A DNA stretch of 64,000 bases, taken from assembly GCA_002238965.1 (NCBI GenBank), contig MPNJ01000001.1:310001-374000 (forward strand), written 5' to 3'. The position numbers and the translations under genes are program-made. The notes under the pieces are model-generated. The model worked only from the letters and a program-made list of their open reading frames with translations, did not search any database and was not told the DNA's origin. Source of the DNA: Nitrospinae bacterium bin107. GTDB taxonomy: Bacteria > UBA8248. The first letter of the stretch is position 1. Every line of letters starts with the position of its first letter. Positions 12,344 to 59,885 of this stretch are shown piece by piece.

Positions 12344-13339
12344 TTGCCCAACATCGATCTTCATCACCACATCTACATCCCCGAGGCGGAAGAGCTCGCC
12401 GCCAAAGAGCGCGAAAGACGCCCCCAGCACGCCGACAGCTTCGAAGGGTTTTTCCCGCCCGTCTCCTCGCGCTACAACGCGAAGATGACGGAGGAGAGCT
12501 GGGCCGTGCAGCTCGCCGACGCCGAGCGCAAGCTGAGCGACATGAAGGCAGACAGGCTCGACATGGCGCTGGCCTCACCGCCGCCCCCCACGTTTTATTA
12601 CTGGATAGGCGGACAAGCGGGCGAGGAGATCATCCAGATCCAGAACGACGGCGTGGTCGATTTCTGCAACCAGAACGCCGCGTACTTCCGGGGCCTTTGC
12701 AACCTGCCTATGCAGAACGGTGGCGAGGCAGCCGCGGCCGAACTCGAGCGCGCGATGGGCAAGGGCCTGCTCGGCTGCATCATCTCCGACCGCATCGGCG
12801 CCCACGCGCTGGACGAGCCCCAGTACGAGGCGTTCTGGGCGGCGGCGGAGCGGCTCGGCGCCCTGGTGTTCATCCATCCCGATTTCGCGGACTACAAGCC
12901 GCTGTTCCCCTTCTACATGGCGAACTGCATCGGCAACCCGCTGTCCACCACAATCGCCGTCACCAGGCTCATTCTCTCGGGCCACTTCGAGCGCTACCCG
13001 AACCTACAGTTGCTTCTCGCCCACGCGGGCGGAAACCTCCCCTGGTCGGTCGGGCGCATCCAGCACTGCTGGGAGGTGCGGCCGGAAACCAAGGTGCACA
13101 CGCCGCATCCGCCCCGCCACTATTTCAAGAACCTCTATTTCGACGTCATCACCTTCAACCCCTCGGCGCTGAAGTGGATGGTCGAGGAGGTGGGGGCCGA
13201 CCGCGTCGTGTGCGGCACGGACTACCCCTACGACATGATGCAGCAGCGCGTCGTGGATTATGTGGAGGGAGCTGGCCTCACTGAAGATGCCCAGGAGAAA
13301 ATCCTGCGCGAGACGCCGGCGAGGCTCATGAAGCTCTGA
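12344..13339 (+). CDS. Amidohydrolase family 2 (ACMSD-like) protein
   Basis: Metal-dependent hydrolase or decarboxylase of the amidohydrolase_2 family. It has 331 residues. The N-terminal metal motif is DLHHH; further conserved elements are LVFIHPDF, LLLAHAGGNLPW and the C-terminal CGTDYPYD, whose Asp is the usual metal-site acid. The start is a TTG preceded by GGAGG at 9 nt. The MetE-like gene follows on the same strand 93 nt downstream, so a shared pathway is plausible, but no substrate can be named. Confidence 0.85.
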   Translation: MPNIDLHHHIYIPEAEELAAKERERRPQHADSFEGFFPPVSSRYNAKMTEESWAVQLADAERKLSDMKADRLDMALASPPPPTFYYWIGGQAGEEIIQIQNDGVVDFCNQNAAYFRGLCNLPMQNGGEAAAAELERAMGKGLLGCIISDRIGAHALDEPQYEAFWAAAERLGALVFIHPDFADYKPLFPFYMANCIGNPLSTTIAVTRLILSGHFERYPNLQLLLAHAGGNLPWSVGRIQHCWEVRPETKVHTPHPPRHYFKNLYFDVITFNPSALKWMVEEVGADRVVCGTDYPYDMMQQRVVDYVEGAGLTEDAQEKILRETPARLMKL

Positions 13340-13432: not shown

Positions 13433-14605
13433 ATGTACATCGCCACGAGTGACCTCATACTTCCCACCACCATCACGGGCTCCCTGCCCCGTCCGGCCTG
13501 GTTCCGCCAGAACATCGGGCGCAGGACGTTCCGACAGGCGATGATCGACGCGGACTTCCGCGAGCAGTATCTCGACAACGTCTCCTGCGTGATCCGGGAT
13601 CAGGAGCGCGCGGGGCTGGACATCGTGACCGACGGCGACGCGCGCTTCGACACCAACGTGGGCGGGCGCGACTGGGTGGGCTACATCGTCGACAGGCTGG
13701 GTGGCTTCTCCGGCTATGAAACATCGAGAAGCCACGCGACCTGGGGCGGTTCCGTGCCGGGCGAGATAATGTACGAGGTGCTGGAAGCGAGGATGCTCCC
13801 CAGGGTCACCGGCAAGGTGAGCGAGGGCCCCCTCGAATACGCCCAGATGTGGCGCTGCGCGCAGGCGATGACGGACAAGCCGCTCAAGTTCGGCTCCATC
13901 AGCGCTGATTGCGTGGAATCCATCATCTCGAACGAGTTCTACGACGACAGGCGCGAGCTATGTCTGGACCTGTGCGAAATCATGCACGCGGAATTTCACC
14001 GCCTGGCGGACGCGGGCTGCCAGGTATTCCAGGTGGAAGAACCCTGGGTGCACCGCTTCGATTTTCACGCCGAGGATTCGGAGATGTCGATGGAGTTCTA
14101 CGTGGATGCGTTCAACAGGAGCGTGGCGGGTCTCAGGGACAAGCTGGAGCTCTGGTGCCACACCTGCTGGGGGAACCCGGCCCAGCAGCGGTTCTATGAG
14201 GCGTCCAAGAGCTATGCGCCCGCGCTGGAGTACATGAACGAACTGGACGTGGACGTGCTCACCTTCGAGTGCGCGAGCACGGGCGGCATGGACTTAGGCG
14301 AGATCGGAAAGCGCATCACGAAACCCAAGGTGGCCATCGGCGTCATCAACCACCGGGGACTCCAGGTGGAGCGTCCCGAAGAGGTGGCCGCCCTCATCCG
14401 GAAGGCGCTCGAGACGATTCCCGCCGAGCGGCTCTGCATCTCCACCGACTGCGGCTTCGGGCGCGAAGGCATGAGCCGCCGCCACGCGTTCTACAAGATG
14501 GTGGCGCTCTCAAGGGGAACGAACATCGTGAAGAAAGAACTCGGCCTGCCCGAGACCTACATCCCCGCGAGCGACGGGGCCTTCACGCTGAGTGACGAGG
14601 ATTAG
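13433..14605 (+). CDS. MetE-like (UroD/MetE fold) methyltransferase, stand-alone C-terminal-type domain
   Basis: It has 390 residues and resembles the catalytic half of cobalamin-independent methionine synthase, not the ~750-residue MetE. Motifs are TTITGSLPRPAWF at the N terminus, DIVTDGDARFD, HTCWGNP and a closing STDCGFGREGMSRR with the zinc-type Cys. Short MetE-like proteins often act on other methyl donors or are uncharacterised; here a true metH is also present, so a role in bulk methionine synthesis is doubtful. The ATG follows GGAGG at 7 nt. The last residues, SDGAFTLSDED, reappear at 15533-15568. Confidence 0.82.
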   Translation: MYIATSDLILPTTITGSLPRPAWFRQNIGRRTFRQAMIDADFREQYLDNVSCVIRDQERAGLDIVTDGDARFDTNVGGRDWVGYIVDRLGGFSGYETSRSHATWGGSVPGEIMYEVLEARMLPRVTGKVSEGPLEYAQMWRCAQAMTDKPLKFGSISADCVESIISNEFYDDRRELCLDLCEIMHAEFHRLADAGCQVFQVEEPWVHRFDFHAEDSEMSMEFYVDAFNRSVAGLRDKLELWCHTCWGNPAQQRFYEASKSYAPALEYMNELDVDVLTFECASTGGMDLGEIGKRITKPKVAIGVINHRGLQVERPEEVAALIRKALETIPAERLCISTDCGFGREGMSRRHAFYKMVALSRGTNIVKKELGLPETYIPASDGAFTLSDED

Positions 14606-17773: not shown

Positions 17774-18022
17774 AAGTCGGCGCCTGGCGGGTCGCCACCC
17801 CCTCGCGTGGCCGAAGCCATACGGGTATTGCGAAATGCCTCAGGCGCCTGACAGCAGAGTAGACTGATTGAGAAAACGAGCCAAGGAAACGTAAATCCGC
17901 GATAATTGATGTTGCAAGAATTCGAACTCGTCACCAAGAACTCCCACCCCTCCCCCTTGCGTATATCGCCGCGTTCGTTTTTAATGGGGCGACATCTTTT
18001 TCAACCCATATCTGGAGCGAGT

Positions 18023-18667
18023 ATGCGAGAAGCGGATGAATTCGACAGGCCGCCGGGCCCGCTGTTCGGGCTTTGGAGCGCGTTTTATATCGACAAATGG
18101 CAGTTCATCAAGCGAAACCTCATGGGAGCCCGAAAAGAGCGCAAGCAAGCGTTCCGCGACACCCTGAAGCCGGGCGACCCGATGCCGGACGTGCGCTTGA
18201 AGACCTCGGACGACGCCGCTTTCGACCTCTCCGATTTCAAGGGCAAGAAGAACATCGTTGTCGAGTTCGGGGCCATCACGTGACCCCCCTACCGCCGGCA
18301 GGTGGCCGGCGTCGAGGATTTGCAGGATAAGTACAAGGATGAGGACGTGGTCTTCTTCGTCGTCTACTCCAAGGAGCCCCACGCAGGGGAGACGCGCCAT
18401 TTCAAGAAGTACGCGCAGCACGAGACGTATGAACACAAGAAACAGTACGCGCAGGAGATGGTGTCGGAATTCGGGATGAAGGTGCCCGTGCTCATCGACG
18501 ACCTGGACGAGAGCGTCGTGCACGCCTTCGGGCGCATGCCGAACATGACGTTCATCGTGGATAAGGAAGGCAAGATCGCCTACAAGTCCGACTGGATGGA
18601 GTCAGAGCGCATCGAGGAGTTGCTCGACAAACTGCTGGCCGAACAGACGGAGGCGGCGACCGCCTGA
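18023..18667 (+). CDS. Deiodinase-like selenoprotein (thioredoxin fold), TGA read as selenocysteine
   Basis: It has 214 residues if the in-frame TGA at 18281-18283 is read as Sec87. Without that, the gene appears as two broken ORFs. Around the TGA the frame reads VVEFGAIT-U-PPYRRQ, matching the active site of iodothyronine deiodinases (FGSxTUPPF). Downstream FFVVYSKEPHAGE matches the deiodinase motif near VIYxxEAHA, and MPNMTFIVDKEGKIAYKSDW is the thioredoxin-fold end. The ATG at 18023 has GGAG upstream. A hairpin with an AGGT-containing loop follows the TGA. The bacterial substrate is unknown; a redox role (peroxiredoxin-like) or reductive dehalogenation are the options. No membrane anchor was found. 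Confidence 0.85.
18284..18317 (+). promoter_or_regulatory. Candidate bacterial SECIS element
   Basis: Immediately after the TGA, bases 18293-18298 (CGCCGG) pair perfectly with 18306-18311 (CCGGCG) around the 7-base loop CAGGTGG. Bacterial SelB recognises a short hairpin in the coding sequence with G and T in the apical loop, as in the AGGTCT loop of E. coli fdhF. The loop GT is about 19 nt from the TGA, a plausible distance. Confidence 0.7.
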
Positions 18668-18773: not shown

Positions 18774-19883
18774 ATGAGAAACTTGACCTCCACCGAATAC
18801 GCATGGTTTCTGCCGACGGGAAGATACGGCGACGGGCACACCATCAACGCCAAGACGCCCGAGCGTCCCCCGACGGTGGAGTACATCTCGGAAGTCGCGC
18901 GCGCGGCGGAAGACGCGGGCTTCGTGAACCTGCTCGTGCCGACGGGTACGCATTGCCTGGACGCCTGGATGATCACCCTGGCCGTCGCGCAGCGCACCGG
19001 ACGCATCAAGTTCTGCGTGGCCTTCCGGCCCGGGCTTTCGAGTCCCGTGCTCACCGCCCAGCAGGCGAACACGTATGACGCCGTAACGGGCGGGCGGCTC
19101 ACCGTGAACGTGGTGACGGGTTCGACGCCTGTGGATCAAAAACGCTACGGCGACCACCTCGACCACGCGGAGCGCTACGCGCGGACGGAGGAGTTCCTGG
19201 ACGTCGTGAAGGCGCTCTGGACGAGCGATGAGCCGGTGAGCTATTCAGGGAAATACTACCAGGTCGAGAACGCCACGCTGTACGCCGAGCCCGTCTCGAA
19301 GCCCCATCCCACGATTTTCCTGGGCGGAAGCTCGGAAGCCGGCCGCCGCGTGGGCGCCAAGCACGCCGACGTGCACATGATGTGGGCGGTAGCGCCGGAG
19401 CAAGTCGCCGAGGACGCGGCGGACATGCGACGCCGCGCGGAGGAAGTCGGGCGCGACGACCTTCGCTTCGGCTTGCGCCTCCACGTGATGTGCCGCGAGA
19501 CCCAGAAAGAAGCCCGCCGCGCCGCGGAGGCGCTTTTAGAGGACAGCGCGCTCGAGAACACGCGGATGTGGGCCGACCAGAGGAATCGCTCCGAGAGCGA
19601 GGGCCAGCGCCGCATGAACGAGTTGTATGAGGGCGGCTCTCCCTGGCTCACAGATACCCTCTGGATGGGCGTGAACAAGGTGCGCTCGGGCGCGGCGGCC
19701 ATGCTGGTCGGCACGCCGGACATGCTGGCCGCGGCGCTCAGGGAATACGTGGACCTGGGCGTCCGCAACTTCATCCTATCGGGCTGGCCGCATCTCGAGG
19801 AAGCCGAGATTTTCGGGCGCGAGGTGATGCCGCTCCTGGCGGACACGAACCCTGCGCGGCTCGACTCGCAACAGGTCGCCTAG
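18774..19883 (+). CDS. LLM-class flavin-dependent monooxygenase, SsuD-like
   Basis: It has 369 residues and belongs to the alkanesulfonate monooxygenase branch of the luciferase-like family. SsuD-type features are FCVAFRPGLSSPVLTAQQA, then GGRLTVNVVTGS, YTGKYY-like YSGKYYQV, FLGGSS and a C-terminal LSGWPHLEEAEIFG. These enzymes use reduced FMN supplied by a partner reductase to cleave C-S or related bonds; the flavin reductase gene follows 41 nt downstream. The exact substrate (sulfonate, dialkyl sulfone or other) cannot be assigned. The ribosome site at the ATG is weak. Confidence 0.9.
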   Translation: MRNLTSTEYAWFLPTGRYGDGHTINAKTPERPPTVEYISEVARAAEDAGFVNLLVPTGTHCLDAWMITLAVAQRTGRIKFCVAFRPGLSSPVLTAQQANTYDAVTGGRLTVNVVTGSTPVDQKRYGDHLDHAERYARTEEFLDVVKALWTSDEPVSYSGKYYQVENATLYAEPVSKPHPTIFLGGSSEAGRRVGAKHADVHMMWAVAPEQVAEDAADMRRRAEEVGRDDLRFGLRLHVMCRETQKEARRAAEALLEDSALENTRMWADQRNRSESEGQRRMNELYEGGSPWLTDTLWMGVNKVRSGAAAMLVGTPDMLAAALREYVDLGVRNFILSGWPHLEEAEIFGREVMPLLADTNPARLDSQQVA

Positions 19884-19924: not shown

Positions 19925-20614
19925 ATGAACTACCGCGTCTTCGACACCTCTGAAATCGACCACTCGCAGATTTACCGGCTCCTCATCGGCTCGGTCGTCC
20001 CCCGGCCCATCGCCTGGGTGAGCACGATGAGCGCTGCGGGCGTGGCGAATCTGGCGCCCTTCAGCTTCTTCACCATGGTGTCGCACCAGCCGCCGATGGC
20101 GTCGATTTCCGTCGGAGAGCGTGAGAACAAGCCAAAGGACACCGCGCGCAACATCCTGGACACCAAGGGCTACGTTATCCACACGGTGGTGAACGGCTGG
20201 GAGGAGGCGATGAACGTATGCGCGGGCAACTTCGCCCCCGATGAGAGCGAGTTCGAGGCGGCGGGTCTCGATATGGTCCCCGCAGACCTCGTGGACGCGC
20301 CGCGCATCAAGGACGCCCCGGTGGCGATGGAGTGCCGCTTTGAGCGCATGATTCCCTTTGGCAATGAGTGGGTGACGCACCTGGTCATCGGGGAGGTGCT
20401 CCGCTGGCACGTGCGCGAAGACCTGATACTCACCGATGAGGAGAAAGTATACATCGACCCCGCGAAGCTCCAGCCCGTGGGCAGGCTGGGCGGCCCCCGG
20501 TACTGCCGCACGCAGGACATCTTCGAGATGCAGGCCCCCTACATCCAGCCCGACAGGGTGCACCCCAACGACCCGGCGCAGAACGACGTCCAGGCGGTGA
20601 AAAAGGGTTCCTGA
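19925..20614 (+). CDS. Flavin reductase-like, FMN-binding split-barrel protein
   Basis: It has 229 residues. N-terminal IGSVVPRPIAWVST is the hallmark of the flavin_reduct domain, followed by NLAPFSFFTMVSHQPP and KDTARNILDTKGYVIH. The C-terminal FEMQAPYIQPDR is typical of the longer members. It probably supplies FMNH2 to the SsuD-like enzyme just upstream, making a two-component monooxygenase. Related proteins can also act as other FMN-dependent enzymes. Confidence 0.88.
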   Translation: MNYRVFDTSEIDHSQIYRLLIGSVVPRPIAWVSTMSAAGVANLAPFSFFTMVSHQPPMASISVGERENKPKDTARNILDTKGYVIHTVVNGWEEAMNVCAGNFAPDESEFEAAGLDMVPADLVDAPRIKDAPVAMECRFERMIPFGNEWVTHLVIGEVLRWHVREDLILTDEEKVYIDPAKLQPVGRLGGPRYCRTQDIFEMQAPYIQPDRVHPNDPAQNDVQAVKKGS

Positions 20615-58172: not shown

Positions 58173-59885
58173 CTAGAAAAGAAAATACCGCTGCGCCATG
58201 GGGAGCACCTCGGCGGGTTCGCACGTGAGCGTTTCCCCGTCCGCCTTTACCACGTAGGTTTCGGGATCGACCTCGATATCGGGCAGGGCATCGTTCAGCT
58301 TCATGTCCTTCTTGCCGATGGAGCGGCAGTTCGAGACGGGCGCCACGATCTTGCCCAGACCCAGTGCGTCGCCCAGTCGATCCTCTGCCGCCGCCCCTGA
58401 GACGAAGGCGTAGGAAGTGGGTCCGATCGCCTTGCCCATCGAACCGAACATAGGCCGGCCCAGAACGGGCTGCGGCGTTGGGATGGAGGCGTTGGGGTCG
58501 CCCATCGCCGCGTGGGCGATGAAGCCGCCCTTCACCACGACTTCGGGCTTCACGCCGAAAAAGGCGGGCTTCCAGAGCACCATGTCCGCCATCTTGCCCA
58601 CTTCGATCGAGCCGACGTAATCGGAAATCCCGTGTGCAATCGCGGGGTTGATGGTGTATTTCGCCACGTAGCGCCTGGCGCGGTAGTTGTCGTTGGCGCC
58701 GCTTTCCTCGGCCAGCGCGCCGCGCTGTCGCTTCATCTTGTCCGCCGTCTGCCAGGTGCGGATGACCACCTCGCCCACGCGGCCCATGGCCTGGGAGTCC
58801 GAACCCATCATGCTGAACGCACCCATGTCGTGGAGAATGTCTTCCGCCGCGATGGTCTCCGCGCGGATCCTCGACTCGGCGAAGGCTACGTCCTCTGGAA
58901 TCTTGGAATCTAAGTGGTGGCACACCATGAGCATGTCGAGATGCTCGTCCACCGTGTTCACCGTGAAGGGCCGCGTGGGGTTCGTCGAGGAGGGCAGCAC
59001 GCCCGCCTCCCCGCACACGCGGATGATGTCGGGCGCATGGCCGCCGCCCGCCCCTTCGGTGTGGTAGGTGTGGATGGTCCGGCCCTTGAACGCGGCGATG
59101 GAGGTCTCGACGAAGCCCGACTCGTTCAGCGTATCGGTATGGATGCACACCTGCACGTCCATATCCTCCGCCACGCCGAGGCAGCAATCGATCGCCGCAG
59201 GCGTGGTTCCCCAGTCCTCATGGAGTTTCAGCCCCACCGCGCCCGCGCGGATCTGCTCGATAAGAGGCTCCGGCCGCGAGGCGTTTCCTTTGCCCAGAAA
59301 TCCCAGGTTCATGGGGTAGGCCTCCGCCGCCTGGAGCATCCGGGCGATGTTCCACGCCCCCGGGGTGCAGGTGGTGGCGTTCGTGCCCGTGGCGGGGCCG
59401 GTTCCCCCGCCGAACATGGTGGTGACGCCCGAGGAGAGCGCCTCGTCAATCTGCTGGGGACAGATGAAGTGGATGTGGGTGTCGATGCCGCCTGCGGTGA
59501 GTATCATCCCCTCGCCCGCCAGCACTTCCGTGGAGGCGCCGACCGTCATGTCCACCCCCTGCATCAGGTGCGGATTGCCCGACTTGCCGACCCCGACAAT
59601 CTTCCCGTCCTTGATTCCCACATCCGCCTTCACCACGCCCCAGTAGTCGAGTATCAGCGCGTTGGTAATGAGCAGGTCGAGCGCTTCGCCCTCACGCGTC
59701 TCGGTGGGGGATTGCCCCATCCCGTCTCTGATGACCTTGCCGCCGCCGAATTTCGACTCATCGCCGTAGACGGTGCGGTCTTCTTCGACCTCGATGAAGA
59801 GATCGGTGTCAGCGAGGCGCACCTTGTCCCCCACCGTGGGGCCGAACATGTCGGCGTAGGCGCGCCTGTCCATGCGAAAAGCCAT
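58173..59885 (-). CDS. ureC: Urease alpha (catalytic) subunit
   Basis: It has 570 residues, normal for the catalytic subunit. The dinickel site is intact: HIHF in [14 protein letters not shown], the carbamylated Lys in [14 protein letters not shown], the His of [21 protein letters not shown] and the catalytic flap [13 protein letters not shown]. Hydrolyses urea to ammonia and carbamate. ATG overlaps the stop of ureB. Confidence 0.99.

Follow-up and report, generated by a model that had tools for sequence, protein, structure and literature searches.

A 64,000-nucleotide stretch of a Nitrospinae bacterium genome (hereafter, the window) contains a reading frame for a relative of the deiodinases that is interrupted by an internal TGA. 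This raises the questions of whether that codon is read as selenocysteine (Sec) and what the resulting protein may do. Animal deiodinases strip iodine from thyroid hormone. Bacterial deiodinase-like proteins were described in 2005 from Sargasso Sea data as four Sec and six Cys forms, for which a redox function was thought possible (PMC1088965), and deiodinase-like selenoproteins were also found in GOS data (PMC2398784). Recent reviews give the motif of the bacterial family as UxxC (PMC9312934, PMC13188914), and one of these, from 2026, describes the functions of the group as largely unknown (PMC13188914). The literature that we searched yielded no function for any bacterial deiodinase-like protein and no paper pairing Nitrospinota with selenoproteins; papers containing both 'Nitrospin' and 'selenocysteine' do exist.

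The interrupted gene

Re-translation of the forward strand from the ATG at 18023 gave a frame whose sole interruption is a TGA at codon 87, followed by 127 more codons and a terminal TGA at 18665-18667 (Table 1). With the internal codon translated as Sec (U), the local peptide reads VVEFGAITUPPYRRQ, which bears out the continuous frame and the FGAIT-U-PPY context described in the initial annotation. The EPHAGE motif that it placed 40 residues further on is present, at residues 118-123, but the spacing from U87 is 31 residues. Mechanical open reading frame (ORF) calling splits such Sec genes into pieces, and the gene had indeed been missed in this way, standard ORF calling returning only fragments of 125 and 121 aa. 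The window protein contains no cysteine and is predicted to have a helix (residues 13-45) followed by a thioredoxin fold. No transmembrane stretch was found at the N-terminus, where an anchor was sought by hydropathy (best 19-residue mean, 0.61).

Table 1. Coordinates of the deiodinase-like gene, its elements, neighboring genes, and related loci of the source genome (G000)
Feature	Position	Strand	Remarks
Sec-containing deiodinase-like protein gene	18023..18667	+	214 aa with TGA read as U, plus terminal TGA
In-frame TGA read as Sec (U87)	18281..18283	+	Motif FGAIT-U-PPY; TGA in Nitrospinota homologues; Sec machinery
Likely Shine-Dalgarno sequence, GGAG region	18012..18018	+	Few bases before ATG; conserved in genus
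Bacterial SECIS hairpin	18293..18311	+	CGCCGGC-AGGUG-GCCGGCG; 7 bp; 5-nt loop with GGU
Codons 115-133 (Y115, E118, H120, H133), proposed proton relay	18365..18421	+	Mapped on Dio3; roles from PMC11592359, PMC9141512
Amidohydrolase (PF04909)	12344-13339	+	About 5 kb from gene; homologue adjoins deiodinase-like gene in L035
Methionine-synthase-like protein (PF01717)	13433-14605	+	
Luciferase-like (SsuD-like) FMN monooxygenase	18774..19883	+	Neighbor; functional link putative
Flavin-reductase-like protein	19925..20614	+	Neighbor; directly beside deiodinase-like gene in second genus
Sec paralogue L002	G000:C4:53586-54224		Two further paralogues 62% and 43% identical
Sec paralogue L003	G000:C17:314195-314800		Motif TTGAITUPPY; longer C-terminus
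selD, itself a selenoprotein gene	L022:1501-2463 (G000:C32:206681-207643)		KAGG-U-GSK

Decoding of the internal TGA

The source genome (4.37 Mb, 96% complete, with named close relatives that are mostly Nitrospinota MAGs) holds three paralogues, counting the window gene. Each has TGA at the site, and we regard the paralogue groups as ancient. Across 18 genomes of the phylum, TGA was found in every homologue that spans the site, in the context GAITUPP(Y/F) throughout; rows scored as 'none' were weak matches to distant sequences or fragments that reach no further than the site. Neither Cys nor a frameshift occurred at the Sec site among the site-spanning Nitrospinota homologues searched, and so the kind of homologue that the initial annotation had named as evidence against Sec, with such a change and no conserved flanking motif, was not encountered in this phylum. 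Elsewhere, the position is Sec in families f7, f49, f56, and f240 and Cys in G290 and G207. Alignment to syntenic DNA revealed that the flanks on both sides of the TGA vary mainly at third codon positions. Because the same TGA and context recur in all site-spanning homologues while the flanks vary in this manner, we rejected a chance TGA.

All four genes for Sec incorporation (selA, selB, selC, and selD), which the initial annotation had proposed to look for and whose absence it would have held against Sec, are encoded in the source genome and scored above curated cut-offs. Profile matches reached 576 bits for selA, 386 bits for the adjoining selB, 334 bits for selD, and 76 bits for tRNA-Sec, which ARAGORN identified as a 97-nt tRNA-SeC with a UCA anticodon. 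The selD gene has an in-frame UGA of its own.

Folding placed a SECIS-type hairpin inside the coding sequence, starting nine bases past the TGA, and hairpins of this type were seen in most relatives. Compared with random synonymous versions, hairpin energy gave a P value of about 0.11 for the window gene and of 0.008-0.16 across members. This signal is modest, and single-sequence energy, being weak proof of a SECIS, was replaced by a family-wide test of synonymous variation. Among 25 distinct main-subfamily sequences, the observed/expected ratio of synonymous differences at codons +4 to +8 was 0.068, the lowest of 111 five-codon windows, and the ratio elsewhere in the gene was 0.974 upstream, 0.845 at codons +9 to +20, and 0.997 beyond +20. 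Codons +4, +5, and +6 are CGC, CGG, and CAG in 25 of 25 sequences. An overlapping antisense frame was rejected as the cause since the dip is too narrow. Covariation adds little to the SECIS case: one stem pair differs on both sides between subfamilies or paralogues (C-G to G-U), and a control with the partner slid by one column scored equally high. The synonymous freeze at codons +4 to +8 is the strongest evidence for Sec decoding, and family-wide freezing of synonymous sites offers a sharp test for bacterial SECIS elements.

These data also bear on other explanations of the TGA. A true stop, whether in a decayed gene, between two half-genes, or created by a sequencing error, would fit the division of the gene by standard ORF calling. 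Both halves are nevertheless conserved together across the phylum, the TGA recurs in genomes that were assembled separately, and the frozen SECIS codons accompany a full Sec machinery; given the invariant TGA and the synonymous freeze, we rejected a true stop as highly improbable. Reassignment of TGA throughout the genome, for example to Trp, found no support and has a negligible probability. The window gene itself ends in TGA (its relatives end in TAA), tRNA-Sec with a UCA anticodon is present together with SelA, SelB, and SelD, and no other credible sense TGA appeared in the part of the window aligned with a relative. To look for other selenoproteins, the window was compared with syntenic DNA from two relatives, and shadow frames dominated the first result. 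Filtering left the TGA at 18281 and five further sites, at least two of which lie antisense to an FtsH gene; the alignments covered about 41 kb of the window, plus a few matches beyond. The window also contains an Rfam match to RF02514 (5' ureB sRNA) at 59443-59719 (+; 94.9 bits), which may be explained simply by conservation of the urease-coding DNA.

We conclude that the internal TGA almost certainly encodes Sec. Decoding through SelB and tRNA-Sec(UCA), which would read the UGA at 18281 by way of the downstream hairpin within the coding sequence, is strongly supported. In terms of identity and decoding, as distinct from substrate, the sequence evidence makes it very likely that the gene encodes a deiodinase-like selenoprotein with UGA decoded as Sec.

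Relationship to deiodinases and redoxins

Pfam matches of the window protein were to Redoxin (4e-18, 65.9 bits), T4_deiodinase (PF00837; 9e-16, 58.3 bits, above the cut-off of 27 bits), and AhpC-TSA (2e-13). The best NCBIfam match was NF038285 deiodinase_rel (2.6e-27), followed by ResA (1.5e-12), a difference of about 49 bits, and the two other paralogues gave the same order of matches. The NF038285 score of 96.2 bits is below the model cut-off of 250, which belongs to a 347-position 'deiodinase family protein' model, as compared with about 214 aa for the window protein. Searching PDB sequences returned ResA (1.3e-7), type II deiodinase (2e-7), and type III deiodinase (3e-7). An AF2 model of moderate confidence (pLDDT 68.8; low around residues 86-89 and 119-132) had a thioredoxin-fold-like shape with a long N-terminal helix, and Foldseek placed ResA and Bcp structures first and Dio3 (4tr3) at rank 19 (E 4e-9), the model being slightly closer to ResA/Bcp than to Dio3; the alignment behind this model took in distant Bcp-like rows, which may bias it. 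Fold comparison thus does not separate a deiodinase-like protein from ResA or Bcp, but the conserved residues do. The bacterial deiodinase-like affiliation proposed in the initial annotation is supported by NF038285, PF00837, and the catalytic-residue map, with Redoxin scoring slightly above T4_deiodinase. In a tree that included Bcp proteins for comparison, a 100/100 branch separated these from animal Dio2/3 together with all the bacterial deiodinase-like proteins, and the Nitrospinota A and B forms grouped with G065 (87/75). Long branches make the internal position of Dio uncertain. In the PDB Dio chains, Cys replaces Sec (the title of 4tr3 names a SeCys->Cys mutant), and they are labeled Cys in the tree.

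When mapped on mouse Dio3, the window protein has counterparts of Thr169 (T86), Sec170 (U87), Pro171/172 (P88/P89), Phe173 (Y90), Tyr197 (Y115), Glu200 (E118), His202 (H120), and His219 (H133). This set, and with it the T-U/C-P-P core and the Y-x-x-E-x-H segment, is invariant in 29 distinct Nitrospinota members, the Y90 position being Tyr or Phe. Ser, Thr, Tyr, Glu, and the two His residues form the proposed proton relay of deiodinases (PMC11592359, PMC9141512); the hydroxyl of Ser167 is absent from the Nitrospinota proteins, with Ala84 in its place in 29 of 29 members. Also missing from the window protein are the recycling cysteines of Dio3 (proximal Cys168, I85; distal Cys239, V154), the Phe258 gate (P173), and the omega-loop residues Trp207 (R125) and Asp211 (a gap), and the loop between the two His residues is about four residues shorter. 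The proximal Cys is required for glutathione recycling in Dio1 and not for deiodination itself, and DTT can substitute for it (PMC11592359, PMC9141512). The half-reaction machinery therefore appears to be largely kept, and the internal recycling route appears to be gone; with no cysteine in the window protein, an outside thiol would have to reduce the oxidized Sec.

The protein shares with the known bacterial deiodinase-like selenoproteins the thioredoxin-fold class, the PF00837 match, UGA-encoded Sec with a bacterial SECIS, and occurrence in marine bacteria. Unlike the reviewed family with its UxxC motif, it has U-P-P-Y and no Cys, and the motif within the Nitrospinota set is U-P-P-Y/F. Animal Dio1-3 share FG-x-x-T-U-P-P-(F/Y) and the equivalents of Thr169, Tyr197, Glu200, His202, and His219, whereas the window protein lacks their transmembrane anchor, as judged by hydropathy, in addition to the substitutions noted. 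Bcp/AhpC-TSA and ResA/TlpA proteins belong to that fold class too and resemble the window protein in sequence apart from the active-site insertion, but their CxxC or PxxxTxxC motif is absent from the window protein, where the site reads AITUPPY, and the aligned Bcp proteins do not carry its Y-x-x-E-x-H ... H segment. It is well supported that the window protein is a new member of the already known bacterial deiodinase-like selenoproteins, probably a cytosolic one with a thioredoxin fold. The term 'deiodinase-like' is apt, and deiodinase activity itself is putative, because thyronine-specific features of the animal enzymes are missing and Redoxin slightly outscores T4_deiodinase.

Relatives in other groups have FGSFTUPPF, FGSFTCPPF, GACTUPPY, and similar motifs, and all but G065 are without a His219 equivalent. 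Three Sec proteins from outside the phylum (L103, L113, and L115 of family f7) have FGSFTUPPF or FGSYTUPPY, nearer the animal motif around Sec; their N-termini carry what looks like a signal or anchor segment, and they have no His219 equivalent. A Cys form (L095 of G290), with FGSFTCPPF and REAHP, is also near the animal motif, with Cys in place of Sec.

Gene neighborhood and possible reactions

The SsuD-like monooxygenase and flavin reductase genes follow the deiodinase-like gene in the genus. This downstream pair had been put forward as a contextual clue to the substrate; it is present, but its conservation as a pair is confined to the genus, and the clue is weak. In a second genus (L035), the order is amidohydrolase, deiodinase-like gene, flavin reductase. 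The surroundings of the paralogues differ: MFS transporter genes lie beside a relative of one, and a different luciferase-like gene and a DinB/mycothiol-transferase-like gene lie beside another. FAA-hydrolase, amidase, and isochorismatase genes occur near a relative. The neighborhood gives a weak hint of redox work in catabolism or detoxification and, being conserved in one genus, partly in a second, and different around the paralogues, was rejected as a decisive functional clue.

Judging from the conserved residues, the Sec87 selenolate would attack the substrate and the Thr86/Tyr115/Glu118/His120/His133 network would deliver a proton, after which a thiol of the thioredoxin or low-molecular-thiol type may reduce the oxidized Sec. 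The enzyme thus described probably works with Sec and an outside reductant, and two classes of reaction were considered for it. It may be a 1-Sec peroxidase or thiol-redox protein, peroxiredoxin- or ResA-like, that resembles deiodinases only around the active site. Redoxin as the top Pfam match and the ResA and Bcp structures heading the Foldseek list are consistent with such a role, as is Pro173 at the Dio3 Phe258 position, where thioredoxin-fold proteins usually have a cis-Pro. Arguing against it are the lack of the Prx PxxxTxxC layout and of a resolving Cys, the invariant Y-x-x-E-x-H ... H relay, which the aligned Bcp sequences do not have in this form, and the lead of the deiodinase profile over that of ResA. 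We consider this role a serious possibility that falls somewhat short of an even chance; a redox role was also suggested for bacterial members by the Sargasso Sea authors (PMC1088965).

An alternative is reductive dehalogenation of natural organohalogens, in which Sec would remove I+ or Br+ from aromatic rings in the manner of Dio1-3; together with flavin enzymes, such a protein would help to degrade or detoxify halogenated aromatics of marine origin. We put this reading forward tentatively, with slightly less than even confidence. The retained proton-relay residues point in this direction, including the His219 equivalent that is absent from most other bacterial relatives found, as do the flavin reductase nearby in two genera, the amidohydrolase (adjacent in one genus and at a distance of about 5 kb in the window), and the FAA-hydrolase, amidase, and isochorismatase genes near a relative. 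Some relatives may be sponge-derived, going by isolate names, and in sponges bacteria capable of debromination are selected for by brominated metabolites (PMC12203066). The absence of Ser167, Trp207, Asp211, Phe258, and the two recycling cysteines of Dio3 speaks against dehalogenation, as do the different neighbors of the other two paralogues. The more specific proposal that the three Sec-dependent, nearly cysteine-free Nitrospinota enzymes are aerobic reductive dehalogenases of natural organoiodine and organobromine compounds is speculative, and we think it rather unlikely. If true, they would form a bacterial counterpart, minimal in its active site, of the thyroid deiodinases. With Sec fixed across the phylum, three old paralogues, and almost no competing cysteine, the Nitrospinota proteins form a compact set of candidates, useful for asking what the bacterial relatives of thyroid-hormone deiodinases do.
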